IMG/VR virus record: IMGVR_UViG_3300030380_001472
Location: 1-22,935 of that record
Strand: one strand, 5' to 3'
DNA: 22,935 nucleotides
Source of the DNA: a virus
Shown: positions 7,548-22,281 of the stretch, one piece after another
How positions within the stretch are numbered: position 1 is the stretch's first letter
Layout of the letters: every line of letters begins with the position of its first letter
Notes under the pieces: model-generated
The model's database searches: none
Seen by the model: only the letters and a program-made list of their open reading frames with translations
Told to the model about the DNA's origin: nothing
Made by a program: the position numbers and the translations under genes

Positions 7548-7904
7548 TTATTGTTGTTGTTTTATTTCTAATACAGATACTTCAATCATGGCTCTAGAAG
7601 CTGCGTTTGCTTGAACTTTCAAACTCTCTCCTTGTTCATAAACCATACTTGAATTTATAGTATTTGTGTCGGAAGCAGATACATCTACTTGAAATATTTG
7701 AAGATCAGATGAGCCATTATTATGGTCTATATTCACTGTGACAGCGGCACTACCATCATAATTATGAGTATTTATAGTCTTTACTATAAAAGTTGATACA
7801 GGTACTGGAGGGGAAGCAGCCACATTAGCTGTAGGAACTGTAAATATTGTAGTCAAATCAGTTGTTGTTACATTCGCTATAAAAGATCTAAATACATCAG
7901 CCAT
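7548..7904 (-). CDS. Beta-rich minor structural protein, hypothetical (118 aa)
   Basis: The protein opens with MADVFRSFIANVTTTDLTTI and is made of alternating hydrophobic and polar residues throughout (STFIVKTINTHNYDGSAAVT), ending in EVSVLEIKQQQ. It looks like a compact beta sandwich such as a small decoration or tail protein. No metal or catalytic motif is visible. The ATG at 7904 lies inside the end of the 56-aa gene (8-nt overlap), so the two are probably co-translated. The family appears regularly in marine phage structural clusters, but its exact role is not known to me. Confidence 0.78.
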   Translation of the reverse strand: MADVFRSFIANVTTTDLTTIFTVPTANVAASPPVPVSTFIVKTINTHNYDGSAAVTVNIDHNNGSSDLQIFQVDVSASDTNTINSSMVYEQGESLKVQANAASRAMIEVSVLEIKQQQ

Positions 7905-8067
7905 TCAAAAACCACGCTCTTCTTGTTGCTTCTTCTTGTGTATCTAAAGTATACGAACTATTAAGTTGTTGAATTAAATCTTCAAGCTGTCTTATTAGCT
8001 CTGCTGACTGTTGAGCATCATACTCAGGTCTAGGATCTGGAAATCTTGTTAATGTTAATTTTGCCAT
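7897..8067 (-). CDS. Small helical conserved protein (56 aa)
   Basis: A short frame from ATG at 8067 to TGA at 7899-7897. It begins MAKLTLTRFPDPRPEYDAQQ, followed by a single predicted helix (AELIRQLEDLIQQLNSSY) and ends TRRAWFLNG. It overlaps the oxygenase gene upstream by 13 nt and the 118-aa gene downstream by 8 nt, the same tight coupling as neighbouring genes. The Asp-Pro-Arg-Pro-Glu-Tyr opening and terminal Trp-Phe are features I associate with a recurrent tiny protein in marine phage tail clusters. Function unknown. It could form a small coiled-coil assembly with a neighbour. Confidence 0.72.
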   Translation of the reverse strand: MAKLTLTRFPDPRPEYDAQQSAELIRQLEDLIQQLNSSYTLDTQEEATRRAWFLNG

Positions 8068-8723
8068 TTATCAAAAAAATATACAACATTGTATCGCCAA
8101 TTTCCATTTGAATATTCCTTATGATTATCAATATAACCGCCGTGAGGAATATCCCCATCAAAAATCACACATCTATTGAACTTAGATTGAATTATATGTT
8201 TTTTAATATTTTGTTCATCTATGTCTATTTTAATGTCTTCATATTCTTGTTCTCCACCAGAGGTTTTATAATTAGGTAATTTTTCATAAAGAGCTGTTCC
8301 TCCACTACATGTTTTATCCATATACACAAGAATATTTTGTGATGGGTCTTGATGAGGTACAAACTGATATTTTTGTTCAGGAGGATTTATCCACGTAAAT
8401 ATATTTGTAGCAATAGTCTCACAATGATGATTATCGAGTTTAAGTAAAGATTTTAAATAGTCAGTAGTTTTGTTTTCATTCTCGAAACCATTTTCTTGTA
8501 AAGATATCCAAGTTCTACAATCAAAATAATCTTTAAAGTTACGTCCATCTTTTTTAATTTTCCAATTAGGAACCCAAGATTCTTTTAACATGTCATAAAT
8601 ATCATCAGCTCTTTTGTAAAAATTATCTATAACAATGTATTTGTAAGGACCAATATATTTTTCTTGTGCTAGTAAGTTGTCGTTAATCTCAAATAGATGA
8701 TGATGAATATAAGGTGTTGTCAC
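8055..8723 (-). CDS. 2-oxoglutarate/Fe(II) oxygenase-like protein, DUF6445 type (222 aa)
   Basis: The double-stranded beta-helix iron site is readable: HQD at 124-126 (FVPHQDPSQN), a second His at 194 in CVIFDGDIPHGG, and an Arg at 210 (NWRYNVVYFF) placed to bind 2-oxoglutarate. Between them GGTALYE is the usual turn before the core strand. N-terminal IVIDNFYKRADDIYDML matches the leading helix of the family. The layout resembles DUF6445-type oxygenases; the substrate is unknown. The start is GTG in a GTGA overlap with the upstream oxygenase gene, and no in-frame ATG occurs until residue 45, so GTG is the best start. It is one of five oxygenase-like genes within 5.5 kb. Hydroxylation of a virion or host-surface molecule is inference. 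Confidence 0.8.
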   Translation of the reverse strand: MTTPYIHHHLFEINDNLLAQEKYIGPYKYIVIDNFYKRADDIYDMLKESWVPNWKIKKDGRNFKDYFDCRTWISLQENGFENENKTTDYLKSLLKLDNHHCETIATNIFTWINPPEQKYQFVPHQDPSQNILVYMDKTCSGGTALYEKLPNYKTSGGEQEYEDIKIDIDEQNIKKHIIQSKFNRCVIFDGDIPHGGYIDNHKEYSNGNWRYNVVYFFDKWQN

Positions 8724-9253
8724 AGTATAGATATATTTGCTGATAAAACTATTCTACTTTTATCTTTGTTTGGCTTTACTTCGTGAGGAACATAGCTTGG
8801 AAATAAAACCATTTTGTTTTTAGCAGGTGATATATTCATTTCAGGACCTTCACAATAAGGGTGCCCAGGTTGATAAAAAGTTGTTGAAGTAGAATCGTCA
8901 CTACATTGTATATAGTATATCAAGGAATGTTCATGTATTTCTCTTCCATGTGCATGAAGTCCATGATGATGACCTTCTGCATAACATTGAATCCATGATC
9001 TAGTAATTTTAAAATCATTTTTATTTAATATTTGTTTTGTATACATTGTAAGATATTGTTTTAAATGATTATAAAAATCATTTAATTGTTCAGATTTATC
9101 AAATATATTTTTACAATCATAAAAAGTGGTAAGCATATCCTCTTTGTCAAAAGAATAATTCTTTATAAAAGAAAGTGTTGAGTCTAGGTTAAACTCGGTT
9201 TGTATATCGTAAATTGTTGTTTGAAATATATTTCTGTTTACTTGTATTTCCAA
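8720..9253 (-). CDS. 2OG-Fe(II) oxygenase-like protein, 2OG-FeII_Oxy_5 (PF13759) type (177 aa)
   Basis: This carries the pattern of the PF13759 group: SWIQCYAEGHHHGLHAHG with HxH at 100-102, then HSLIYYIQC, a distal His at 157 in LFPSYVPHEV, and Arg 167 in KSRIVLSANI for 2-oxoglutarate. Length matches the family. The start appears to be TTG at 9253, directly after the stop of the 608-aa gene. The first in-frame ATG is residue 40 and would cut into the conserved N-terminal part. The gene overlaps the next oxygenase by 4 nt. The group is common in cyanophages and other marine phages, but substrates are not established. It differs in sequence from the other four oxygenases here, so it is not a recent duplicate. 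Confidence 0.82.
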   Translation of the reverse strand: MEIQVNRNIFQTTIYDIQTEFNLDSTLSFIKNYSFDKEDMLTTFYDCKNIFDKSEQLNDFYNHLKQYLTMYTKQILNKNDFKITRSWIQCYAEGHHHGLHAHGREIHEHSLIYYIQCSDDSTSTTFYQPGHPYCEGPEMNISPAKNKMVLFPSYVPHEVKPNKDKSRIVLSANISIL

Positions 9254-11080
9254 TTATCTTCTTCCATCTGGTTGTATGTCAAAACGTTGTGTTCCTAATC
9301 TCCAAGCTGTGCCTGTAGTATTTGAAACTAGGTTGACTGTAAATTCTCTACCTCTACCTCTTAAACTCACAAAGTCTGTGGTATCTGAGAAGCTTGTAGT
9401 TTTAGTTACACTAATACTATTGTTTGGATAATTCTTAAATTCAAGTTTTGCATTTAATACACCTGCTTGATTTTCAACGTCAGGAATAATTTTAGATACA
9501 AAAGCAAATTCGTCGCCTTGAGCTATTTGTACTACTCCTGATTTAACAAAAGCAGTAATTGCCTCTCCGTCAGCATCATTTCCTGTTTCGTGTAAAAACA
9601 TTTGTGTAGCTCCATCTGTAAGACCTAATATGACCTCGTTGTTTGCCGTGGTCGATGGTAAGTAGTCTGATGCCACAGGGTTATCAAAAACTTCTCTATC
9701 AATCCATGTTGTTCTGTCAAGAGTTCCTGTCCACCAAGTTTGTTCTAAATAATTATAAGCTACTATCGCATTTATCTCGTTAGAGCCTGTTCTAGGATAA
9801 AACCACATAATCTCATTGAATTCACCATTGTGCCCTGCAAAAGCGTTTTCAGAACCTGTTACATTAATATTGTCAAATACAAACTGTTCCACAGTGCACG
9901 GTAATTTTTTAACTGAACCATCAAATAAGAAGAAAGAATCTTGTGACATCCAATAGCTTATACCATTAATGTCTATACCTGCGTGCATACCTATTATGCC
10001 ACAATTCTGACCTAATTGTCTTAAACCAAAAGTAAATGGTGGACCAATAAATTGTAGCCCATGAAGAGATGTGTCTGTCCAAACAAGTATCTGACCTCTT
10101 GATCTTTCAGCGGCCACGATTCGTGATCCGTCGGCAATTCTTAAAGAGCCCGCAGTATTTTCTGCTGTTGGTTGATAAGTATTTATATCTTCTTGACTAG
10201 AAAATCTAATCAATAAATCATCTTGGCTGTTAGGTGTTGCAATAGTTTTCTCAGTACCCATAAACAGTAAGTGTCTGTCTGGAGTTGAAACTAAACTTAT
10301 TCTTGATGCTGTTGGTGCGCTTGCTATAGCTGTTGCTCTTGTTGATACACCTGTTGAAGGCTTCCACTCAAAAGCTCCACCATTTAAAACAGTGGCAACT
10401 AAATTTTCACCGAAGTTATCTAAAGACCATTGTCTTGCTTCTAGAGTAACATTAGATGTGGATCTTGGCGTGTTCCATGTTGATATACCATAAGTATCTG
10501 TACCCCAACCAAAAGCAGGAACTGAAAATTCAGGACCTAAATTAAGTTGATAGTTCATGTTACCAGTGCCTCCACCTGCAGCGGTAGAACCTGAAGCAGT
10601 GCCTGTATGAGTTACCACATAAGCAGCAGTATTGACGACAGAGGTAACTTCGAACTCCTTATTCATATCTAATCCATCAATGGCTGAAAAAGAATCAAAA
10701 GTCACAAAACTACCTTGAACACATCCATGACCTGCATCAGTGACCACCACAGAAGTAGTAGCGTTTGTGGTAAAAGGATTTGTTCTTGCTTGAGTTCTTC
10801 TAATTGGTGTTATGTCGTAAGCTAAACCTTCTTGTATTAAGTAAAGTTTTCTGTCAGTGCCTATAGCGTTCTGTCTTACTCCGTCTAAAGATACCCATGC
10901 GTGTTGGTCTCTAGCGGCTCCTACTAATGTAGTAGAAATAAACTTTTGCCATCCCTTGATTTTTTGTGCAGATCCTTGGAAAAAGCGAACCATATCACCA
11001 TCAGTCCACTTACCCTGACCTGTATAATCAGTAACTTCTTTGTTAATACCGGGTGCGGGTCTAAAATTTACTAGGGGCAT
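9254..11080 (-). CDS. P22 gp10-like tail/stabilisation protein (608 aa)
   Basis: A large beta-rich protein. It opens with LVNFRPAPGINKEVTDYTGQ and has VRFFQGSAQKIKGWQKF, as in many marine phage tail proteins. The centre has ILVWTDTSLHGLQFIGPP and GISYWMSQDSFFLFDG, repeating blade-like segments. The C terminus (residues about 555-608) contains DFVSLRGRGREFTVNLV and WRLGTQRFDI. The domain order (N-terminal site-listing strand, propeller-like middle, Arg-rich beta C terminus) resembles the P22 gp10 'phage stabilisation' type that plugs the tail after DNA packaging. Assignment rests on recalled similarity. The start is ATG with no clear Shine-Dalgarno. It is flanked by oxygenase genes on both sides, which is unusual for such a core tail gene. 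Confidence 0.8.
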   Translation of the reverse strand: MPLVNFRPAPGINKEVTDYTGQGKWTDGDMVRFFQGSAQKIKGWQKFISTTLVGAARDQHAWVSLDGVRQNAIGTDRKLYLIQEGLAYDITPIRRTQARTNPFTTNATTSVVVTDAGHGCVQGSFVTFDSFSAIDGLDMNKEFEVTSVVNTAAYVVTHTGTASGSTAAGGGTGNMNYQLNLGPEFSVPAFGWGTDTYGISTWNTPRSTSNVTLEARQWSLDNFGENLVATVLNGGAFEWKPSTGVSTRATAIASAPTASRISLVSTPDRHLLFMGTEKTIATPNSQDDLLIRFSSQEDINTYQPTAENTAGSLRIADGSRIVAAERSRGQILVWTDTSLHGLQFIGPPFTFGLRQLGQNCGIIGMHAGIDINGISYWMSQDSFFLFDGSVKKLPCTVEQFVFDNINVTGSENAFAGHNGEFNEIMWFYPRTGSNEINAIVAYNYLEQTWWTGTLDRTTWIDREVFDNPVASDYLPSTTANNEVILGLTDGATQMFLHETGNDADGEAITAFVKSGVVQIAQGDEFAFVSKIIPDVENQAGVLNAKLEFKNYPNNSISVTKTTSFSDTTDFVSLRGRGREFTVNLVSNTTGTAWRLGTQRFDIQPDGRR

Positions 11081-11092
11081 TGTGCGAATATA

Positions 11093-11560
11093 CTATAAAA
11101 TTGGTACAAAATCCATAGCGACTGTTATTCTATCGCTTTTTACTTTATCAACACCATGTAAGGCGTCTGATTTGAACAATATAGCAAACCCTTCTTTTTC
11201 TTCAACATGTTGTTTTTTGTCATTAATCATAAAATATAAACAATTATTGATAGATGGTTTGATTATAATAATAAGAGAATATTCTTCGGGTTGATGATGA
11301 TGAAGTTTTGTCCAATTGAATTTTTGATAGTAGTTAACCCACCAAGATGATTTTTTCCATTTATGACTATTATTTACTTTAGGCAATATATTCTCAATAA
11401 CAAAATCACCAATATCATGTAAAAATTGATAGTTGGGATTAAATCCTGATGTGAGTGATTTAACGTTTTTTAAGTCTTTTTCCCAATTGTCTTTTTCTTG
11501 ATAAACAAAATTAGAGATATTTACACAATCATTATGTGGTATCTCAAAGGTTATAAACAC
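11093..11560 (-). CDS. 2OG-Fe(II) oxygenase-like protein, short HxH type (155 aa)
   Basis: A short protein with the iron-site pattern H87-x-H89 (FNWTKLHHHQPEEYSLII), a distal His at 135 in LFKSDALHGVDKV, and Arg 144 in KSDRITVAMDF that would bind 2-oxoglutarate. The Trp-rich stretch WWVNYYQKFNWTKLH matches the strand leading into the HxH of PF13759-like proteins. It is shorter than its neighbours but all core elements are present. The start is GTG at 11560, 4 nt after the glycosyltransferase stop; no alternative ATG lies near. It stands between the 608-aa tail gene and the glycosyltransferase. Replacement of the usual HxD by HxH is a known variant in phage members, but activity is not proven by sequence. 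Confidence 0.75.
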   Translation of the reverse strand: MFITFEIPHNDCVNISNFVYQEKDNWEKDLKNVKSLTSGFNPNYQFLHDIGDFVIENILPKVNNSHKWKKSSWWVNYYQKFNWTKLHHHQPEEYSLIIIIKPSINNCLYFMINDKKQHVEEKEGFAILFKSDALHGVDKVKSDRITVAMDFVPIL

Positions 11561-11564
11561 GAGA

Positions 11565-12383
11565 TTATTTATTTGCTTTTTGCACGAGAGAACCTACATG
11601 GCCTTTAAAGGCTCTATTACCAAAGTGTGTTAATGGCATAGCTAAGTCTGCCCATATCTCACCACCACACTCTTGCCATAATCTTGAGAAGTAATAATCT
11701 TCAGAGAGATATCTAATTTGTGTTTTGCCATCTCTTGTTTTCGTTTCATAAGGACCTACAGCGAACAGATCATAACAATTGTCTGACTTGTAACTTTGTC
11801 CATTTACAATTTGATCTGACTCATATTTTCTTTCAGGAAATTTTTTCATCATAGTCCTAAACACCTCTCTCTTAACAAGCATCATTCCTGTAGCAGCTTC
11901 TTGTACAGGAAAAAAACCTTGCTCCCCTTTTAAATTAAGAGGATCATCAAAGTTTACATTATACCCCAAACACCTAGCTTCAATTTCATCTGGTTGTGCA
12001 TTAGGGTTTTCTTCTAAAATTCCTTTTATCTTTTCTATATAAAGATGTTTTCTAGGGTAAATTCCACATGCAACATCTTTGTCTGCACATATTAATCTTT
12101 CAATATTTTGCCAATTAAATCCTATGTCAGCATCTATAAATAATAAATGAGTAGCTGCAAAATCAGTTTGATCCATCATCATAGAAACAATGGTATTTCT
12201 AGCTCTAGTAATTAAACTTTCATTACCCATAGTCTGTATTCTTAAATGTACATTATTAGTTGCAGTCCAAGATTGAAGCTCTAGCAAACCATGCATTGTG
12301 CTTTCAGTAAGCATGCCACCGTACATTGGCATACCTAAAAATATTTTTAAATTCTTATCTTTTATTTCTTCTGGTTTAATCAT
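11565..12383 (-). CDS. Glycosyltransferase-like protein, GT-A fold with DxD (272 aa)
   Basis: The protein starts IFLGMPMYGGMLTESTMHGL, a typical first strand of GT-A transferases. Conserved NESLITRARNTIV (54-66) and the DxD motif D84-A-D86 in LLFIDADIGFNW follow, which in this fold binds the metal and sugar nucleotide. VACGIYPRKH and AATGMMLVKREVF build the core. Late elements LSEDYYFSRLW (227-235) and LTHFGNRAF (251-259) fit the catalytic acid and closing His seen in many phage and bacterial relatives. Donor and acceptor are unknown. The ATG lies in a TAATG overlap behind a strong AAGGAG, unlike the neighbouring oxygenase genes. Its place between oxygenase genes and close to tail fibre genes suggests modification of virion proteins or host surface glycans; this is inference. 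Confidence 0.85.
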   Translation of the reverse strand: MIKPEEIKDKNLKIFLGMPMYGGMLTESTMHGLLELQSWTATNNVHLRIQTMGNESLITRARNTIVSMMMDQTDFAATHLLFIDADIGFNWQNIERLICADKDVACGIYPRKHLYIEKIKGILEENPNAQPDEIEARCLGYNVNFDDPLNLKGEQGFFPVQEAATGMMLVKREVFRTMMKKFPERKYESDQIVNGQSYKSDNCYDLFAVGPYETKTRDGKTQIRYLSEDYYFSRLWQECGGEIWADLAMPLTHFGNRAFKGHVGSLVQKANK

Positions 12384-12997
12384 TATTTTCTCCTTGACGA
12401 TTCACTGTAACCTATGTTTGGTCTACTATCATATGCCCATTCAGGATAATGTGGCCCTTCCATATCAATATAATGAAGGAAGCATTGCGCACAATGATCT
12501 CCCTGTAGTTTGTTTCTCCAATGCACCAACTCTTCCCCCATGTAAATAATACCATCTCCAGGGTTCATAGTTATTTCTGCTTCCATAGAATAACCATTCT
12601 CTATATCTTCACCTTTATTTAATTTTCCAAAATAAATTGGCCAAGGTTCTCCACCAAAATTAATAGTTACTGAATATTCACAAGACTCTCTATCTCTATG
12701 AGGCTTTAGAGTTTCACCTCTAGTATAAACTCTTGAATAAGAGTATGTAGGACATAAGTTCTTTTTTGTAATTTCAGATATAGTAGGTAATAAAATACCT
12801 GACAAAGTTTCTGTGGTAATGTCAGAATAACAGTATCTTATATATTTAATTGCACTATCTTCCTTGGAATTAGAAAATTCAAGGTTGGTACATGCTTTGA
12901 TTATTAAATAATTATAAATAAAACTTGATATTTTTGGATCTACTAAATTTGGAACGTGTACATAATCATTTTTTTTAAAATATTCTATTCTGTCCAT
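12383..12997 (-). CDS. 2OG-Fe(II) oxygenase-like protein, HxD type (204 aa)
   Basis: The iron site reads H100-R-D102 in LKPHRDRESCEYSVTINFGG and distal His 159 in GIIYMGEELVHWRN, with NPGDGIIYMG just before it as in known 2OG oxygenases. The later AQCFLHYIDMEGPH segment is the usual last core strand in this marine phage group. The N terminus (FKKNDYVHVPNLVDP) has the classic 'Gly/Asp-Tyr-Val-x-x-x-Asn-Leu' opening of phytanoyl-CoA dioxygenase-like proteins. The ATG is at 12997, 13 nt inside the end of the upstream oxygenase gene, with GGTGA upstream. It is the only one of the five oxygenase genes with an ATG start. Substrate unknown. Confidence 0.82.
   Translation of the reverse strand: MDRIEYFKKNDYVHVPNLVDPKISSFIYNYLIIKACTNLEFSNSKEDSAIKYIRYCYSDITTETLSGILLPTISEITKKNLCPTYSYSRVYTRGETLKPHRDRESCEYSVTINFGGEPWPIYFGKLNKGEDIENGYSMEAEITMNPGDGIIYMGEELVHWRNKLQGDHCAQCFLHYIDMEGPHYPEWAYDSRPNIGYSESSRRK
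12390..12395 (-). promoter_or_regulatory. Strong Shine-Dalgarno of the glycosyltransferase gene
   Basis: AAGGAG is formed by the last codons of the upstream oxygenase gene, 6 nt before ATG at 12383. It contrasts with the weak or absent sites before most oxygenase genes in this cluster. Confidence 0.7.
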
Positions 12998-13563
12998 ATC
13001 ACCAAAACTTTCCTAGTCCCTTTTGTTAAAGGTGTTACGCTATGAGGAAACATAAAATTAGAGGGAAAACAAACAACATCTCCACGATCTATTTTGATAC
13101 CCTTCTGTGAATTTTGAACGAATAACTCTCCTCCTTCATATTCCTTAGGATCGTTTAATCCAATTAATAAGGTAAGTGCCCTTGGAGCATCTTTAAAATA
13201 ATCAGTGTGATAATCATAATGACCACCATTTTTGCCTTCATAATATAAAAATTCGAAATAGTTATTGTTAGAAAAATACCATGATGAAATCTTTTCTCGA
13301 TATTCATTTTCAATAGTGCTTGTAAATCTTTTTAAATCATTGAATATAATTCTTCTACTTATTGAATTACCAATATCTTTTTCATATAGACTAGTGCTTT
13401 TTACTGTTCTAATTTTTTCGTTAAGCCCAGATGCTGTGGAAGCTTTTTCCCAATCATCAACGTTCCTGTATATCTCTTCATTAATTAAATTTACTAAAGA
13501 TGGTTTCATAGCATCTTTAATAATCAGAGAATACTGAAGAACTTCTTTTTTGAGGTTAAGCAC
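12985..13563 (-). CDS. Prolyl-4-hydroxylase-like 2OG-Fe(II) oxygenase (192 aa)
   Basis: This is the clearest prolyl-hydroxylase-like member. YDYHTDYFKD holds H119-x-D121; LTLLIGLNDPKEYEGGELFV is the core with the Gly-Gly-Glu-Leu turn; CFPSNFMFPHSVTPLTKGTR contains His 174 and the basic residues (K181, R184) that bind 2-oxoglutarate; VLVIW closes the fold. This matches the 2OG-FeII_Oxy_3 pattern. Known relatives hydroxylate proline in proteins, though substrates of phage members are mostly unknown. The start is GTG at 13563, overlapping the upstream stop by 8 nt. The first in-frame ATG is residue 19. It is the oxygenase closest to the fibre genes, so fibre proteins are the simplest candidate substrates (inference). 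Confidence 0.85.
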   Translation of the reverse strand: MLNLKKEVLQYSLIIKDAMKPSLVNLINEEIYRNVDDWEKASTASGLNEKIRTVKSTSLYEKDIGNSISRRIIFNDLKRFTSTIENEYREKISSWYFSNNNYFEFLYYEGKNGGHYDYHTDYFKDAPRALTLLIGLNDPKEYEGGELFVQNSQKGIKIDRGDVVCFPSNFMFPHSVTPLTKGTRKVLVIWTE

Positions 13564-14026
13564 CGAGGATAGTGTTTTTAGCTGAGGTTGCAGAAGTTTG
13601 TGCTGCTGTTTGTGCTGCAGCTACATCTGAATCATAACTTGCTGAAGTAGAATCTAGTCCAGATAGCGCATTATCATATTCGGTTTGATATGTTGTCCAA
13701 TATGCTTTTTCGCCATTCCAACGAGTAACCATTGTATTAGCCCAAGCAGGTAGACTTGAAACATCTATCTCTTGATTTTGTGCAGTGCCATCAAACTCAA
13801 TATGTCCTGTACTTGTAGAACCACTGAATTGTAAAGCATGTACATTAGAAGGTATGATGTCTTTACCATTGATATTAAGATAAGATTGACCATCTATAAT
13901 TACATCTGCCTCTGTGTCCCCAGAAAACTCTTTAGGGCCATTACTAGCATTACTTGGATTGATATCAGCATCATTAATAATAGTAAGTCTATTATTTATT
14001 GTTACGCTGTTTATTGTTATTGCCAT
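13556..14026 (-). CDS. Small fibre-associated structural protein, hypothetical (156 aa)
   Basis: The N-terminal half is beta-rich (MAITINSVTINNRLTIIND) with DTEADVIIDGQSYLNIN. A middle Trp-containing segment (AWANTMVTRWNGEKAYWTTY) follows, then a C-terminal Ala/Ser/Thr helix (VAAAQTAAQTSATSAKN) that could form a coiled coil. I do not recognise a named domain. It follows the three fibre paralogs and a Cys-containing protein and overlaps the latter by 35 nt, so a role in fibre structure or assembly is plausible but inferred. The start is ATG at 14026; the Lys-codon-rich end of the upstream gene precedes it. The GTG start of the next oxygenase gene sits in its last codons. Confidence 0.72.
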   Translation of the reverse strand: MAITINSVTINNRLTIINDADINPSNASNGPKEFSGDTEADVIIDGQSYLNINGKDIIPSNVHALQFSGSTSTGHIEFDGTAQNQEIDVSSLPAWANTMVTRWNGEKAYWTTYQTEYDNALSGLDSTSASYDSDVAAAQTAAQTSATSAKNTILGA

Positions 14027-14459
14027 TTTTTTTAACTACCTTTTTAGTACCTTTCTTCTTTTTAACACTTTTTTTATTTTGAAGCAACTGAATATCTTCA
14101 TCTATATCCTCTCCGTTTGCAAGAGCTTCTTGACTGTCTGATATCTTTGTCCAAAAACTACCAACAGGGTTTTGTTTTTGTTCAGCTTCTTTATTCTTTT
14201 GATCTACTAGAGCTAAGGTTACCATATTGGCTTTCACCATTTCGTTTCTAAAAGACTCAACAGCAGAATTAGTTTGAACTTGTTTGCCTGTATTTTCAAC
14301 TAAAAGTAAGGGAATCCATGCTATGGAACAACCCCACTCTTGTACGTTTTGACCTGTTTGTGGGTTTTTTCCTTGAAGCATATTGTACCAAACACATTGA
14401 TGTTTCATACACTTCTTATTTATAAGAGGACACTTACCATCAGGATCGAATATTGGCAT
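13992..14459 (-). CDS. Cys-containing conserved marine phage protein with basic tail (155 aa)
   Basis: Four Cys at 10, 17, 22 and 44 lie in CPLINKKCMKHQC and EWGCSIAWIPLLLVEN, an arrangement I recognise from a conserved small protein near tail fibre genes of marine phages. The spacing could make a small metal site but this is not shown. The centre is helical (SFRNEMVKANMVTLAL). The last 30 residues are Lys/Asn-rich (KKSVKKKKGTKKVVKKNGNN) and overlap the next gene by 35 nt; the basic tail may partly reflect this overlap. The start is ATG at 14459, 19 nt after the fibre stop, with only a weak AAG-rich site. Function unknown. Confidence 0.74.
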   Translation of the reverse strand: MPIFDPDGKCPLINKKCMKHQCVWYNMLQGKNPQTGQNVQEWGCSIAWIPLLLVENTGKQVQTNSAVESFRNEMVKANMVTLALVDQKNKEAEQKQNPVGSFWTKISDSQEALANGEDIDEDIQLLQNKKSVKKKKGTKKVVKKNGNNNKQRNNK

Positions 14460-14478: not shown

Positions 14479-15522
14479 TTAATCCTTAGAACATGCAATG
14501 ACATTTGCAAATTTAATATCCATGTCTGGAACTGTCAAATCTGTCGTTGCCGAAACACTACCTGATAAAGATACACTTCCTGAAATTGGGTGACTATGCG
14601 TTCCGCCTCCACCCGTGGAACCAGTGCTTCCGCCACCTCCTGATGGTCGAGGTGGATCTCCACCTGGTTGACCACTACGTCCACTCATGTTATTTGGGTG
14701 ACTGTGAGAAGGTATCGTTGGTGTGGAAAGAGTTGTATCTCCGACAGCTAAAGTTCCTGTTGAAGCACCTGCACTTGAGGCATCATCAAAAGTAATAGGG
14801 CCAGAGGCAGTTGATTTTGTACCTGTAAACACTGTAGCAAAGGCATCGGAACCTGCTAATCCACCACCAGAACCTGTAACAACTTGAAGTGTTGTTGTAT
14901 TTATCGTAGCAGAAGTATTTTGTGTCCAACCACTAGGAGCAGATCCTTGAAAAAATAAAGCAGTAGAACCTGAGGGTATGCTTGATACTCCTGTTAAAGC
15001 AGAGCCATCTCCAGAATATGCAGTAGCATTAATTGTACCGTTTGCAGCAGTCATTACTGTACTGTCAACAGTCAAAGAATTTAGAATACTTAAATCACCT
15101 AATGAGTTTGCAAACAAATCAATCATATCATTGCTAGCATTATTATAGGCAATGGTGTGAGATCCTTGTGTAATAACTAACGCATTAGCTGTATGGCCTG
15201 TGGCACAAACACTTAAAGTTTGAGATCCTGTAGTGTTATTAAAAAAAATATAGTTTGATTCTACCGCAGGAATAAAAACTTTTATGTCACCTGTTAAGGC
15301 TCCTGTGAACTCTATAACTTTATTAGACGCTTCTGCGGTGGGACTTGCATCGGCTGTTGTAAGTGTAACATCAGCAGAACCTGCTACGGACTTTGATAAA
15401 TATCCTGCTGTAAAGGCATCAACCACTTCAAGATTATTATTTGTGTTTGTTCCCCAAGTTCCTGAGTTAGCTCCTGTTTGTTGAAGTTCTAATTTATATC
15501 TATCTGAATAAGTGCTTGTCAT
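14479..15522 (-). CDS. Tail fibre/collar protein, paralog 3 of 3 (347 aa)
   Basis: Residues 1-150 form a conserved anchor domain (TYSDRYKLELQQTGANSGTW, then EASNKVIEFTGALTGDI and VESNYIFFNNTTGSQTL). Residues about 185-235 form a tail-collar-like domain (APSGWT, GGGLAGSDAFATVF). The tip starts at IPSHSHP (HSH 273-275), then a variable Gly/Pro/Ser-rich loop to GGGGTHSHP (HSH 309-311), and ends in MDIKFANVIACSKD. HSH pairs in T4 gp12/gp37-like fibres bind metal along the trimer axis, so a trimeric fibre tip is likely. Cell-surface binding is inference from domain type. It follows paralog 2 by 2 nt and uses an AAGGA site made by that gene's last codons. Confidence 0.88.
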   Translation of the reverse strand: MTSTYSDRYKLELQQTGANSGTWGTNTNNNLEVVDAFTAGYLSKSVAGSADVTLTTADASPTAEASNKVIEFTGALTGDIKVFIPAVESNYIFFNNTTGSQTLSVCATGHTANALVITQGSHTIAYNNASNDMIDLFANSLGDLSILNSLTVDSTVMTAANGTINATAYSGDGSALTGVSSIPSGSTALFFQGSAPSGWTQNTSATINTTTLQVVTGSGGGLAGSDAFATVFTGTKSTASGPITFDDASSAGASTGTLAVGDTTLSTPTIPSHSHPNNMSGRSGQPGGDPPRPSGGGGSTGSTGGGGTHSHPISGSVSLSGSVSATTDLTVPDMDIKFANVIACSKD

Positions 15523-15524
15523 TT

Positions 15525-16565
15525 TTAATCCTTTGTCGCTATTATACTATCTGCAAATTTTAAATTCATCGCAGGAACACTCGCAGCCACGGTAGAAGAA
15601 AGACTACCACTTAGAGATATACCTGACAAGGTGTGACTGTGAGAGCCACCACCACCTGCACCACCTGTGCTTGATCCACTTGAACCTGTTGCTATTGGAG
15701 AACCACGACCTCTTGAGGGTTGTGGACCACCTGCACTAGTTCTAGGATGACTATGAGAGGGTATTTGAGGGGTACTCAAAGTTGTTGCTCCTGCAGTTAA
15801 ACTACTAGTATCTACTGTTAAACTACCTGTGCTAATTGGAACACTCGCCTTTGAAGCTGACTTTGATCCTGTAAACACTGTGCTAAAAGTATCAGAACCA
15901 CCTGTGCCACCACCTGTGCCATTAACTACTTGTAAACAACATTCTGTTAAAGTAGCAGAGGTATCTGTCGTAAAACCTGTCGGAGCTGAAGTTTGTACAA
16001 AAGTTGCTTTGGTTCCTGCGGGAAACTCTTGCACTCCAGTCAAACCTCCACCATCTCCTTTTAAGGTTGTTGCTGAAACTGTGCCATTTGCAAAAAGATT
16101 AATGTTATTTCCAATCGCAATCTTACCTTTAGCTGAAACGTTACCGAAAGAATTAGCAAATAAATCTACCATTCTATTACCCTTACAATACATAATCGTA
16201 TGGGCACCTTGCACTATTGCTACTCCATTAGCTGTATGTCCTGTAGGAGCAACAGTCAAAGTTTGTGATCCCGTTGTGTTGTTAAAGAAAATATAATTAG
16301 ACTCAACGGCAGGCACAAAAACTTTAATATCGCCTGTTAATGCTCCTGTAAATTCAATTACTTTGTTAGATGCTTCAGCATTAGGATCTGAGTTGTTTGT
16401 GCTTAAAGTTATATCTGCTGATCCTGCCACACTTTTAGCTAAAAAACCTGCATTAAAAGCATCAATAACTTTTAAATTTGTATTTGTATTATCTCCCCAT
16501 GTGCTTGCATTAGCACCTGTTGCCATCAATTCTAATTTTAATCTATCTGAATAAGTTGAGGCCAT
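15525..16565 (-). CDS. Tail fibre/collar protein, paralog 2 of 3 (346 aa)
   Basis: It shares the architecture of its neighbours: anchor TYSDRLKLELMATGANASTW, EASNKVIEFTGALTGDI, collar-like APTGFT and GGTGGSDTFSTVF, tip HSH at 271-273 and 309-311, end MNLKFADSIIATKD. The segment between the HSH motifs is Pro/Arg/Gly/Ser-rich and unlike the other two copies. It also has an unusual MYCKGN and a Cys pair (ECCLQ, 209-210) that the others lack. The start is ATG at 16565, one nt after the paralog 1 stop, behind AAGGA with 5 nt spacing. Probably a receptor-binding or accessory fibre; whether it makes homo- or hetero-trimers with its paralogs cannot be read here. Confidence 0.88.
   Translation of the reverse strand: MASTYSDRLKLELMATGANASTWGDNTNTNLKVIDAFNAGFLAKSVAGSADITLSTNNSDPNAEASNKVIEFTGALTGDIKVFVPAVESNYIFFNNTTGSQTLTVAPTGHTANGVAIVQGAHTIMYCKGNRMVDLFANSFGNVSAKGKIAIGNNINLFANGTVSATTLKGDGGGLTGVQEFPAGTKATFVQTSAPTGFTTDTSATLTECCLQVVNGTGGGTGGSDTFSTVFTGSKSASKASVPISTGSLTVDTSSLTAGATTLSTPQIPSHSHPRTSAGGPQPSRGRGSPIATGSSGSSTGGAGGGGSHSHTLSGISLSGSLSSTVAASVPAMNLKFADSIIATKD
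15529..15533 (-). promoter_or_regulatory. Shine-Dalgarno of fibre paralog 3, made by the last codons of paralog 2
   Basis: The final Lys-Asp-stop codons of paralog 2 read AAGGATTAA; AAGGA lies 6 nt before the ATG of the next fibre gene. The site is thus part of a conserved protein end. Confidence 0.7.
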
Positions 16566-16566
16566 A

Positions 16567-17598
16567 TTAATCCTTACTACAAACTATTACGTTTGCCCTT
16601 TTTATATCCATACCTGGAACAGAAAGAGCAATTGAAGGTGCTCCCATTGTTCCTGTTAAATTTCCTGATCCACTGACAGGGTGAGTGTGAGAGCCACCAC
16701 CTCCTGTAGATCCAGTTGAACCACCTGGTCCAATTCTTGACTGAGGACCACTATCAACATTAGGACCACCACTTATTGATTGAGAAGGGTGAGAGTGAGA
16801 TGGAATTTCAGGTGTTGACAAAGTCACATCACTTGCAGATCCCCCTTCGATTGTTAAAGGAGATATATCAACTGTACCCGCTCCTGAGGTAGCTTTTGAT
16901 CCTGAAAAAACTGAATTAAATAAATCTGAACCACCTGTTCCTGCAGTACCAGAAGTTATAACTCTTAGTGTTGCATTGGTTAAAGCCGCTGCAGTATTTT
17001 GAGTCCAACCTGTTGGTGCGGACGCTTGTAAAAAAACCATTTGTGTATCTGCGGGTAAGGTGCTTACTCCTGTTAGATCTCCACCTGCACCAGTAAATGA
17101 AGAGGCAACAACCTGTCCATTTGATTTTACTTGTACAGATCCACCAACCGCACCCGCACCTTTAAAACTGACAGTGCCTAATGAAGATGCAAACAAGTCA
17201 ACAACTTTGTTACTTGCATTGTTGTAAGCAATAGTGTGCGCTCCTTGTTGTATTGTAATTGAGTTTGCAGTATGACCTGTTGGCGCTACCTTTAAAGTAT
17301 GTGAGCCAGAGGTATTGTTAAAAAATATATAATTATTTTCTACAGCGGGAATGAATACAATAATATCTCCTGTTAAAGCACCAGTAAATTCTATAACTTT
17401 ATTAGCAGCTTCTGCCGAAGGATCAGCATCTCCTGTTGTTAAAGTTATGTTAGCGGAACCTGCTACAGATTTAGCAAGAAAGCCTCCACCGAATGTATCA
17501 ATAGTATTAAGATTGTTATTTGTTCTAGTGCCCCAAGTGTTGGCGTTTGCGCCACTTGCCATGAGTTCTAGTTTTAATCTATCTGAATATGTACTCAT
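16567..17598 (-). CDS. Tail fibre/collar protein, paralog 1 of 3 (343 aa)
   Basis: The first translated of three tandem fibres. Anchor TYSDRLKLELMASGANANTW, then AANKVIEFTGALTGDI and VENNYIFFNNTSGSHTL; collar-like APTGWT and GTGGSDLFNSVF; tip HSH at 268-270 and HTH at 304-306; end MDIKRANVIVCSKD. The variable loop between the histidine motifs (SQSISGGPNVDSGPQSRIGP) differs fully from the other copies. The ATG at 17598 has only a distant AAGG, 13 nt upstream. The Gly-rich segment recalls polyglycine adhesin tips of T-even-like phages, but no true collagen Gly-X-Y run is present. Likely a virion adhesin; receptor unknown. Confidence 0.88.
   Translation of the reverse strand: MSTYSDRLKLELMASGANANTWGTRTNNNLNTIDTFGGGFLAKSVAGSANITLTTGDADPSAEAANKVIEFTGALTGDIIVFIPAVENNYIFFNNTSGSHTLKVAPTGHTANSITIQQGAHTIAYNNASNKVVDLFASSLGTVSFKGAGAVGGSVQVKSNGQVVASSFTGAGGDLTGVSTLPADTQMVFLQASAPTGWTQNTAAALTNATLRVITSGTAGTGGSDLFNSVFSGSKATSGAGTVDISPLTIEGGSASDVTLSTPEIPSHSHPSQSISGGPNVDSGPQSRIGPGGSTGSTGGGGSHTHPVSGSGNLTGTMGAPSIALSVPGMDIKRANVIVCSKD
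16571..16575 (-). promoter_or_regulatory. Shine-Dalgarno of fibre paralog 2, made by the last codons of paralog 1
   Basis: AAGGATTAA at the end of paralog 1 places AAGGA 5 nt before the ATG of paralog 2. It has the same sequence and reading as the site at the next junction. Confidence 0.7.
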
Positions 17599-20930: not shown

Positions 20931-21506
20931 TTACCTCTTCTTATTAAGTTTTTCATACGTACGTTGCCTTTCAGCTACCACTTCTTCATAGTAGTCTTTA
21001 GGCCATTTCTCATAATAGCCTATCTTATGTAGTTTGCAACTTGCATCATAGAGTTGTTTAAACTTTTGTATAAGCATCATGGAATATTCTAAATCTGAAT
21101 GTTCTACAGGTTCCTCTGTGGGATCGCATAAAAACTCTTGTTCATTAGGGTCAGCAGGAGTTTCGGGGTGAAATCCCATAAAATATACATCTTTTCTGTT
21201 GTAGGTTTTATTGTAGAAATCTATCTTGTCTTGAAACTGTTCGGGAGAGTATTGTTCAAAAAAAGGGTCACAATAGATAATTATATCGTGTTGTTTTTTA
21301 TTCCAAGATTTAATAACTGAAGTTAATTGTTTTTCGTATTTAGATTTGTCCATGCGAACTTCTATTCGTAGTTTATTATCTCTTCTCCATTTAGCGGCAA
21401 ATGGACAGGCAGGGAAACCTATGTGTTTGTTAACTGGTTCTAAGACAGTCTTAGACCAATTAACTACATCAAGTTTTATTTTTTCTGCTTGTTTTTTTCT
21501 TGACAA
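20931..21506 (-). CDS. Conserved marine phage protein with CPFA and FHP motifs (191 aa)
   Basis: A soluble mixed alpha/beta protein. VVNWSKTVLEPVNKHIGFPA leads into CPFAAKWR, a later HDIIIYCDPFF strand, then DVYFMGFHPETPADPNEQE and a C-terminal helical part (MMLIQKFKQLYDASCKLHKI, GYYEKWPKDYYEEVV). The spaced Trp-x-x-x-Val, CPFA and FHP elements recall the DUF1415 group of bacterial proteins, but similarity is limited and may be chance. Proteins like it occur in cyanophage and other marine phage genomes without known function. The start is TTG at 21506, inside the end of the 91-aa gene (38-nt overlap); the first in-frame ATG is residue 52 and would remove the conserved part. Confidence 0.75.
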   Translation of the reverse strand: MSRKKQAEKIKLDVVNWSKTVLEPVNKHIGFPACPFAAKWRRDNKLRIEVRMDKSKYEKQLTSVIKSWNKKQHDIIIYCDPFFEQYSPEQFQDKIDFYNKTYNRKDVYFMGFHPETPADPNEQEFLCDPTEEPVEHSDLEYSMMLIQKFKQLYDASCKLHKIGYYEKWPKDYYEEVVAERQRTYEKLNKKR

Positions 21507-21744
21507 ATGTTCTTGCTCTTGAGGGTGTAGGCCCTGTATTTGATTTAGCTTGTTTTCTTCTAACGGCTCCTGCTTTTTGTCCTTTAGACATGGCCCTTGC
21601 TTTTGCTATTGGGACGCACTTGGGGTAGTTTTTTCTTTTTTCTCCGCCACTTCTACCACATTTAGGATAAGAACCATCAGATTTTTTATTGGCTATATCT
21701 ACCCAATTTTCTTTTACCCAAGATCTAAGTCCTTTTTTTGCCAT
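21469..21744 (-). CDS. Small basic conserved protein, KGLRSWVKENWVDI type (91 aa)
   Basis: The start is ATG at 21744 behind AAGGA. It begins MAKKGLRSWVKENWVDIANK, has YPKCGRSGG and NYPKCVPIAKARAM with two Cys (29 and 43), and ends in a Lys/Arg/Thr-rich tail (SRARTFVKKKTSRKNK). I recognise this small family from cyanophages, other marine phages and some giant viruses (DUF5872-like, from memory). No function is established. Basic charge suggests nucleic acid contact. It overlaps the upstream 97-aa gene by 20 nt and the downstream 191-aa gene by 38 nt. Confidence 0.8.
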   Translation of the reverse strand: MAKKGLRSWVKENWVDIANKKSDGSYPKCGRSGGEKRKNYPKCVPIAKARAMSKGQKAGAVRRKQAKSNTGPTPSRARTFVKKKTSRKNKT

Positions 21745-22018
21745 GTTGTTTCCTTATACTATTTTTACCGCTTTTGAATATAGAAGCCACTTTATTTTTA
21801 CCCATAACTTTAGCTCTTTGTTCTCCTACAGTGAGGATTTGAATTTTGCGTGCGTAACTTTTGTTGACTTTTTTAACTTTCGAAACAGTTTTGCGTGCAT
21901 CCGTTGGAGTAGCAAACTTAATACCGACAGTATCTTTTGGATTCTCATCTGTATAAAGTCTTCTACCAGACCCTTTTGGTTTTTTACCTGTTCCTACTTT
22001 GGGGTCTTTTGTTTTCAT
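21725..22018 (-). CDS. Small basic conserved protein, KPKGSGRRLYTDENP type (97 aa)
   Basis: It opens MKTKDPKVGTGKKPKGSGRR, then LYTDENPKDTVGIKF, an element I recognise from small proteins of cyanophages and other marine phages. The middle helix (VNKSYARKIQILTVGEQRA) and basic end (SGKNSIRKQHGKKRT) give a strongly positive protein. ATG overlaps the upstream stop (TAATG) and the gene has no Shine-Dalgarno of its own, so it is probably translated by coupling. Likely a nucleic acid- or capsid-linked small protein; function unknown. Confidence 0.8.
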   Translation of the reverse strand: MKTKDPKVGTGKKPKGSGRRLYTDENPKDTVGIKFATPTDARKTVSKVKKVNKSYARKIQILTVGEQRAKVMGKNKVASIFKSGKNSIRKQHGKKRT

Positions 22019-22281
22019 TACAGACGTTTAGTTACTTTTCTTCTGTTCTCCATGACGCCACCACAACCTTTTGCGATACCACCTTGCTTAAAACTAGAAA
22101 CTTTTTTTCTTTCTTGTGATACTTGATTTATCATACCACCATCAGCTTTTTTATTTTTTTTACCACCTGGAGTAACTTTTCCAGAACATACTGCGCCTGC
22201 ATACATATTAGCATAAGCGCTAGGGTAGACTTTAAATTTCCGCTTTGCGGCGGCTTTTCCTTTTGCGCATAGTTTTGCCAT
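22018..22281 (-). CDS. Small basic conserved protein, KLCAKGKAAAKRKFKVYPSA type (87 aa)
   Basis: The start MAKLCAKGKAAAKRKFKVYP followed by SAYANMYAGAVCSGKVTPGG is the mark of a short family found in marine phages and some giant viruses. The C-terminal part carries KKADGGMINQVSQ and KQGGIAKGCGGVMENRRKVT, a Gly/Lys/Cys tail often seen separately at the ends of marine phage proteins, so the protein looks like two joined modules. Function unknown. ATG at 22281 follows the Cys-rich gene by 8 nt, with GAGGAG in the end of that gene. Together with the 97-, 91- and 49-aa genes it forms a group of small basic proteins. Confidence 0.8.
   Translation of the reverse strand: MAKLCAKGKAAAKRKFKVYPSAYANMYAGAVCSGKVTPGGKKNKKADGGMINQVSQERKKVSSFKQGGIAKGCGGVMENRRKVTKRL

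Follow-up and report, generated by a model that had tools for sequence, protein, structure and literature searches.

Genes for oxygenases that depend on iron and 2-oxoglutarate (2OG) turn up often in ocean phages without an explanation, and the usual reading assigns them to host metabolism. Why, then, would a phage carry five different ones in the same close-packed run as its tail-fibre genes? We addressed this question in a stretch of 22,935 nucleotides (hereafter the window), positions 1 to 22,935 of the 23,446-base IMG/VR virus record IMGVR_UViG_3300030380_001472, and in its relatives. In this lineage the genes are part of an island between the tail-fibre and virion genes, composed of a near-constant pair, g5 and g4, and a probable glycosyltransferase gene (GT), plus an exchangeable pool of about 30 oxygenase clusters and other tailoring enzymes.

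The main genes of the window lie on the minus strand and resemble the virion gene block of a podovirus-like phage. A first-pass annotation had listed five 2OG-Fe(II) oxygenase-like genes here, and all five open frames were found on that strand: g5 (12985..13563), of the prolyl 4-hydroxylase (P4H)/PKHD type with the pattern HTD...H...R; g4 (12383..12997), with a predicted HRD-type 2OG oxygenase fold; the accessory HxH-type genes g3 (11093..11560) and g2 (8720..9253); and g1 (8055..8723), likewise accessory, with a predicted DUF6445-type 2OG oxygenase fold and the pattern HQD...H...R. GT, absent from that list, lies inside the cluster on the same strand (11565..12383). It matches phrog_1574, of unknown function (4.5e-37), and the glycosyltransferase family phrog_34859 (6.4e-5), and has no match in Pfam, NCBIfam or the PDB sequences. 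The five genes and GT share one close-packed run with the tail-fibre genes, in which g1 and g2 overlap by 4 bases, GT and g4 by 1, g4 and g5 by 13, and g5 and the next gene by 8.

The five genes almost certainly encode 2OG-Fe(II) oxygenase-type proteins. The families assigned in the first pass were upheld (PF13640/PKHD-type for g5, DUF6445 for g1, PF13759-type for g2 and g3, HRD-type for g4), and the Pfam search that it had proposed was positive for three of the genes. g5 matches PF13640 (2.2e-16) and g2 both PF13759 (6.4e-9) and PF13640 (2.5e-6), above the Pfam cut-offs; g1 lies barely above that of DUF6445 (8.4e-6), the only one it passes. g3 falls below the cut-off of PF13759 (0.0041) and takes its family call from phrog_81 ('2OG-Fe(II) oxygenase', 2.3e-13), and g4 has no Pfam family. 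Further PHROGs matches link g5 to phrog_61 (6.3e-29), g2 to phrog_81 (1.9e-27) and g4 to phrog_2954, labelled 'ferrochelatase' (1.6e-44); NCBIfam models of PKHD-type dioxygenases match g5 below their cut-offs. phrog_274, phrog_2297 and phrog_1644, labelled 'DNA endonuclease V', 'DNA endonuclease' and 'minor coat protein', also match g1, g2 and g5 of the window. These labels look wrong or too wide, because they match these oxygenases, phrog_274 being matched by 23 of the 47 proteins of a mixed oxygenase set.

Alignments show an HxD/E/H...H iron triad in each of the five, g2 and g3 having HxH and not HxD. Residues H124/D126/H194/R210 of g1 (n=6 sequences), H87/H89/H135/R144 of g3 (n=11), H100/H102/H157 of g2 (n=10) and H100/D102/H159 of g4 (n=25) are invariant, R167 of g2 is present in at least 90%, and in g5 the H-x-D..H residues and an R/K at H+10 are each present in at least 85% of 94 cluster members. 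The order of HxD or HxH, distal His and basic residue described in the first pass thus stands for g1 (R210), g2 (R167), g3 (R144) and g5; g4 has the triad and no conserved R/K of the 2OG-binding type 7 to 16 residues past the distal His. Structure prediction, likewise proposed there, gave 2OG dioxygenase-type folds for both proteins modelled, g4 and g1, each with a predicted double-stranded beta-helix. The AlphaFold2 model of g1 (predicted local distance difference test, pLDDT, 79.8) aligns in VIA-align with PolD (Z 12.3) and with collagen prolyl 3-hydroxylase P3H1 and an algal prolyl 4-hydroxylase (11.9), and its fold matches include a mimivirus lysyl hydroxylase. For g3 the beta-helix comes from a match of its family profile to PDB 3bvc (2.2e-5) and 2rg4 (6.2e-5), both unnamed proteins. 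In the close pair formed by the window and locus L012, the ratio of nonsynonymous to synonymous change (dN/dS) is low in g1 (0.04), g2 (0.04), g3 (0.13) and g4 (0.14), and g5 has too few changes. Medians within clusters (0.036-0.703; g5 0.70, g4 0.54) were set aside as evidence, since many pairs come close to saturation, and only the window/L012 pair is cited.

Relatives were collected with the stabilisation-type virion gene, the landmark of the lineage, which in the window (9254..11080, minus strand) matches phrog_3287 (virion structural protein, 5.1e-86) and is called 'stabilization protein' in the annotation of relatives. Its product shares 46% identity with the counterpart in phage DSL-LC04 and 39% with the counterparts in Pelagibacter phages HTVC027P and HTVC023P; kinship with the HTVC023P-type pelagiphages is judged from this one gene. 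The best 80 of 459 IMG/VR stretches were kept, and L090, L091, L092, L094, L100 and L103, on contigs shared with earlier loci, were removed before counting. Among 86 loci of the lineage, 32 hold the full interval from tail fibre to structural genes and 36 were used for co-divergence; the remaining 50 have no main-cluster fibre of sufficient length or no landmark. The 32 intervals were not dereplicated and include both the window and L011, whose contigs are identical over the genes compared; a further 78 g4 loci considered below were likewise left without dereplication.

The genes usually run in the order tail fibre, a pair of small genes (or others), g5, g4, a variable slot, GT, a variable slot, the stabilisation-type gene, a variable slot, a gene for 118 amino acids (aa), a variable slot, and structural genes. 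The 118-aa gene (7548..7904 in the window, minus strand), the right-hand landmark of the island, is present in 32 of the 32 complete intervals, as is GT; the g5 cluster is found in 31, and g4 in 29 plus one as a g4-g5 fusion. The intervals hold 3-10 oxygenase domains with a median of 5, and five is therefore ordinary here rather than exceptional. The first-pass figure of one or two per marine phage is also too low: the available portions of published texts give 9, 10 and 24 for cyanophages, and HTVC008M has five in a row.

The island oxygenases form 34 single-linkage clusters at 30% identity. Since clusters 161 (g5) and 178 (g4) are end-truncated fragments and cluster 62 is the g4-g5 fusion, we count roughly 30. 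Families were redefined by these clusters together with a conserved-triad test because the profiles of g2, g3 and g5 merged with one another on iteration. The g1 family lies ahead of GT in L038, L069 and L071 and past the stabilisation-type gene in the window, L061 and L089, indicating that modules move. The slots also hold other enzymes, each recognised from a single representative that was scanned: sulfotransferases (1e-12; 4.7e-11), a tryptophan halogenase (3.3e-102), methyltransferases (3.7e-20; 6.8e-13), a JmjC/cupin-type protein (1.4e-8), a sugar-nucleotide epimerase (5e-43) and a carbamoyltransferase (2.3e-50), of whose family four of seven members sit in slots, the scanned one lying directly ahead of the fibre. 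A scan of 47 aligned putative and doubtful oxygenases gave 19 PF13759, 13 PF13640 and 4 JmjC_2 matches, one epimerase and one phosphatase-type protein, some with multiple matches; thus not all accessory open reading frames in this set are classical oxygenases. One frequent accessory gene (L072:1326-2048, in a cluster of 33) matches DUF6065 only (9.2e-7). Tryptophan halogenase-type genes also occur among or near oxygenases in unrelated phages (L049:12615-14105; L188, syn9; L189, Sf-CH3; L009, HTVC008M), and a protein might be their substrate rather than antibiotic synthesis their role.

The clustering of oxygenases is not due to chance. At E values of at most 0.01, PF13640 or PF13759 match 46 places in 13 related records, and 45 of these are no more than 8 kb away from the stabilisation-type gene; 14.4 were expected, and the maximum in 100,000 random draws was 29. 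The lone exception is in record G005. The test leaves out HTVC033P, in which the stabilisation-type gene has no position, and HTVC008M, a T4-like myovirus with scattered matches. More distant relatives carry fewer oxygenases, one in DSL-LC04 and none in Roseobacter phage CRP-901.

If the enzymes serve the fibre, how do they vary with it? We compared protein distances by partial Mantel correlation, controlling for backbone distance measured on the stabilisation-type gene (permutation floor p 0.002). Dereplication at 98.5% identity reduced 36 loci to 30, the window being among the 6 dropped and represented by L011. Mean distances over the 30 loci are 0.145 for the stabilisation-type protein, 0.19 for the 118-aa gene, 0.20 for GT, 0.33 for the fibre N-part and 0.29, from fewer pairs, for the gene that flanks the fibre on its other side; they reach 0.61 in the fibre C-part, 0.63 in g5 and 0.55 in g4, and for accessory gene content the mean Jaccard distance is 0.90. 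Correlation with the tip is high for g5 (0.87), for the two small genes between fibre and g5, up2 (0.81) and up (0.70), and for g4 (0.79), lower for accessory content (0.35; each p 0.002), and weak for GT (0.25, p 0.018) and the fibre N-part (0.25, p 0.006). The 118-aa gene (-0.18) and the gene beyond the fibre (-0.09) show no correlation. Likewise, within the 21 loci of the window's own tip group we obtained 0.78 for g5, 0.74 for g4, 0.30 for accessory content (p 0.004) and 0.26 for GT (p 0.006), against -0.19 for the 118-aa gene and -0.23 for the gene beyond the fibre.

Individual pairs illustrate the exchange. The stabilisation-type proteins of L024 and L017 are 94% identical, their tips 24%, g5 25% and g4 28%. 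Across 24 pairs with close backbones and different tips, mean identity is 33% for the tip, 38% for g5 (17 pairs) and 59% for g4 (12 pairs); distant backbones with similar tips, only 4 pairs, give 73%, 63% and 72%. At least two kinds of tip occur in the lineage, one bearing HxH motifs and one rich in glycine, and the small genes that come next usually differ between them. The exchanged block seems to start within the fibre gene and to end about g4. Together these results agree with the first-pass annotation in that the oxygenases do not look like stray auxiliary genes: 45 of 46 places lie near the same virion gene, the g5-g4 pair is near-constant, and both members co-diverge with the tip. Relatives also keep a cluster and not independently scattered genes. 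The proposed multi-step system found no support, since members besides g5 and g4 are exchanged freely; interchangeable decorations or cargo therefore fit better than a fixed pathway.

The simplest reading is that the oxygenases and their companions chemically finish the fibre tip or its partners, because the enzyme genes lie together with that of the fibre, the near-constant pair varies in step with the tip, and the companions that transfer sugar, sulfate, methyl or halogen groups are exchangeable. We hold this proposal to be evenly balanced between true and false. The same data bear on the idea that the oxygenases are mixed cargo of a recombination hotspot, with unrelated functions, hitch-hiking with a rapidly exchanged fibre gene. 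Accessory content is indeed swapped almost freely, does not track the tip once g5 or g4 is controlled, and the co-diverging block is contiguous. Against cargo of this kind stand a g5 cluster in 31 of 32 complete intervals and g4 or its fusion in 30, a fibre association that recurs in unrelated myoviruses, and the low dN/dS of four of the five genes in the window/L012 pair, and we regard it as unlikely.

The AlphaFold2 model of g4 (pLDDT 87.4) has eight strands following the first helices. The best Foldseek matches are SnoN (1.6e-8), proline hydroxylase H11, EvdO1 and GriE, with AviO1 also among the fold matches. VIA-align places SnoN at Z 16.8 (3.3 A, 173 residues) and hypoxia-inducible factor (HIF) prolyl hydroxylase PHD2 at about 16 (best 16.0; 2.9 A, 164 residues), so that the fold matches include protein hydroxylases (PHD2, P. 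putida P4H). A g4 profile found one match in the PDB sequences, judged chance, and the oxygenase call comes from the predicted fold and the triad. Some 2OG enzymes have their basic residue at another place; in g4 the invariant arginines are R89, R103 and R161 (H+2), any of which could take this role. There are also fused forms: the first half of phrog_3531 (362 positions) corresponds to g4 and the second half to g5, and three loci carry a g4-family member of 370-386 residues (L037:2591-3751, L067:5438-6574, L086:3586-4698), a C-terminal PKHD-type domain being confirmed in L086 only (residues 205-365). The domain order of the fusion, g4-g5, is the reverse of the usual gene order.

The label of phrog_2954 points to another function. 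Among the 30 best phage records, with GenBank and RefSeq copies treated as separate, 19 have the name 'ferrochelatase' under the g4 match. In the available portions of two papers, such genes are treated as ferrochelatase partners of oxygenases in pelagiphages (PMC9599517, 2022), and phrog2954 'ferrochelatase' is enriched in seasonal phages of a time series (PMC11561400, 2024). With E values as high as 10 allowed, the ferrochelatase profile PF00762 matched 10 of 14 control genomes and not one of 15 phage records; it also matched none of 25 g4 proteins, and on this profile evidence g4 as ferrochelatase was rejected. No ferrochelatase name occurs among the 50 matches listed for g4 by each of Foldseek and VIA-align, which alone excludes nothing. 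The published partnership is better described as two adjacent oxygenase-type genes.

These searches also count against the reading of the cluster as auxiliary metabolic genes acting on the host, through 2-oxoglutarate/nitrogen balance or, following the name, haem. It is a common published view (PMC9599517, PMC9602691, PMC11561400, PMC5628999, in their available portions), nitrogen or host metabolism being proposed in PMC5628999 and PMC9602691, and in phage Mosig (L185, 10990-12226) the annotation directly past the oxygenase run names a putative haem oxygenase and a putative phycocyanobilin:ferredoxin oxidoreductase. A metabolic role would leave both the co-divergence with the tip and the large exchangeable pool at one place without a reason, and appears quite unlikely.

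Is the neighbourhood of fibre and oxygenases particular to this lineage? g4 is widespread, with at least 600 rows in the IMG/VR scan, and another oxygenase lies within two genes in 77 of the 78 further g4 loci. We examined 16 named records carrying g4, eight taken from a 16-row listing and eight picked by hand from the phage-record matches. By raw count, 11 of them have, within about 9 kb of g4, a gene annotated as tail fibre or collar or else a protein whose tip is Gly-rich and fibre-like: HTVC023P, 023Pt_psg01, HTVC033P, HTVC008M, S-SM1, Mosig, S-H9-2, S-SM2, Sf-CH3, ACG-2014b and S-PM2. In S-H9-2 a 'tail assembly chaperone' is flanked by two oxygenases, and in HTVC008M five oxygenases stand in a row beside neck genes. 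Bacterial and archaeal assemblies contribute another 69 loci with g4 relatives, and some of these assemblies may hold phage contigs.

The same neighbourhoods speak to the suggestion that the oxygenases modify or repair DNA, made in the available portions of PMC9146016 and PMC11288001. A helicase flanks the cluster on the other side in S-PM2, S-H9-2 and S-SM1, and there is weak AlkB-/TET/JBP-type similarity (AlkB-type PF13532 in 4 of 25 g4 proteins, best 0.018; Tet_JBP 0.071 for g5). The neighbour common to podoviruses and myoviruses is the fibre, and the podovirus relatives viewed have no gene annotated for DNA repair or replication next to their oxygenases; a DNA substrate is highly improbable.

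A further possibility is that the enzymes act during infection on surface glycans or the envelope of the host, masking receptors or excluding superinfection, and adjoin the fibre because the same receptor is concerned. In its favour, surface glycans typically go with companions such as the sulfotransferases, methyltransferases, epimerase and glycosyltransferases seen here, the fold matches of g4 include oxygenases of the sugar and antibiotic type (SnoN, EvdO1, AviO1), and in S-SCSM2R g4 lies with several glycosyltransferases and no fibre within 6 kb on each side. Among the scanned genes of the window run we identified no transporter or envelope-assembly gene, and this explanation does not by itself account for g5 and g4 changing with the sequence of the tip. 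We consider it unlikely.

Several observations weigh against fibre finishing. Physical linkage by itself could yield the co-divergence, which is expected if tip and enzymes belong together and also if they are merely neighbours. The coupling is loose in places: L084 and L069 share 71% identity in the tip and only 44% in g5 and 45% in g4. The correlation of accessory content with the tip falls to 0.035 with g5 controlled and to 0.025 with g4 controlled. The best fold matches of g4 include small-molecule enzymes (SnoN, EvdO1, GriE), and the basic residue is missing from its usual place. No fibre was seen near g4 in the stretches examined of 5 of the 16 named records (S-T4, S-SCSM2R and Syn10, 6 kb on each side; syn9; ACG-2014f), a crude detector placed a fibre or Gly-rich protein within four genes in only 31 of the 78 further loci, many on short contigs, and HTVC008M has many more oxygenase matches scattered over its genome. 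Throughout, the fibre as substrate is inferred.

How might fibre finishing proceed? The island enzymes would be made together with the fibres. In the infected cell, g5 and g4 would place hydroxyl groups on residues in the fibre tip or in its small partners, using iron, oxygen and 2-oxoglutarate, a chemistry we infer from family and predicted fold. Accessory oxygenases would add further variable decorations, as would sulfotransferases, halogenases, methyltransferases and glycosyltransferases in relatives. The outcome would be a chemically diversified adhesin, swapped between phages along with its own enzymes. No oxygenase is named among the 45 virion proteins of cyanophage S-SCSM1, 13 of unknown function, in the available portion of PMC9602691, which would fit enzymes acting in the cell. 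We propose more tentatively that tip, small partners and cognate hydroxylase pair may form one exchangeable cassette, that a shuffled pool of enzymes may write the variable adhesin decoration that tunes receptor recognition, and that the pelagiphage 'ferrochelatase' and clustered oxygenases may be parts of this modular system.

Parts of this picture have precedents, cited from the portions of the papers available. Co-location of oxygenases in the related HTVC023P-type pelagiphages is already published (Wittmers et al. 2022, PMC9599517): several non-orthologous 2OG oxygenases occur together, and the 'ferrochelatase' is always beside an oxygenase. That account gives a metabolic reading with a haem-enzyme partner and, in its available portion, draws no link to the fibre tip, whereas here the partner has a predicted oxygenase-type fold and co-diverges with the tip. 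Variable tail-fibre regions with Fe(II)-dependent oxygenases (8 of 390 genes), tabulated under 'host recognition', are likewise found in metaviromic islands of marine phages (PMC3909814); the available portion gives no mechanism, families or g5-g4 pair. In Alteromonas phages, tail fibre and cognate chaperone modules (PMC10579305) also represent a host-recognition module moving with a helper gene, the helper being a chaperone, whereas here the helpers would be enzymes. Cyanophage S-SCSM1 carries 24 such oxygenase genes (PMC9602691). The T4-like cyanophages and pelagimyophages rich in oxygenases (HTVC008M, Mosig, S-SM1, syn9) have runs of these families, including g4, often near fibre genes; they differ in their larger genomes, additional scattered copies and lack of the stabilisation-type landmark.

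A model for such chemistry is the fibrous protein that is hydroxylated and then glycosylated. Mimivirus L230, collagen P3H1/LH3 and algal P4H, hydroxylases that act with glycosylation, resemble the island through the fold matches of g1; they belong to eukaryotic or giant-virus systems and have no exchangeable island linked to a fibre tip. Collagen in viral tail fibres is mentioned together with a viral prolyl 4-hydroxylase, whose use is called cryptic, in the available portion of PMC9301287. A literature search joining oxygenase or hydroxylase with phage tail fibre found, in the texts available, no tail-fibre modification by these enzymes; preprints and most subscription journals were outside its scope. 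Added here are the island layout between fibre and virion genes, the co-divergence of g5 and g4 with the tip, and the location of g4 near fibre genes in 11 of 16 named phages.

Three tandem tail-fibre-like genes on the minus strand of the window (14479-15522, 15525-16565 and 16567-17598) form one sequence cluster, the first matching the tail fiber family phrog_12796 (2.2e-4). Each of the three paralogues contains two HxH motifs, which are metal binders in T4 fibre tips. Between fibre and g5, and also encoded on the minus strand, the small proteins up2 (13992..14459) and up (13556..14026) have no family and no informative family, respectively, in Pfam and PHROGs. At 21469-22281 of the window, three small adjoining Lys/Arg-rich frames (91, 97 and 87 aa) possibly encode nucleic-acid-binding virion proteins.

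If the oxygenases do finish tail fibres, a class of 'auxiliary metabolic genes' would shift to host recognition, and phage adhesins would gain a chemical layer on top of sequence. Reports resting on the phage 'ferrochelatase' (phrog_2954) would then need rereading.

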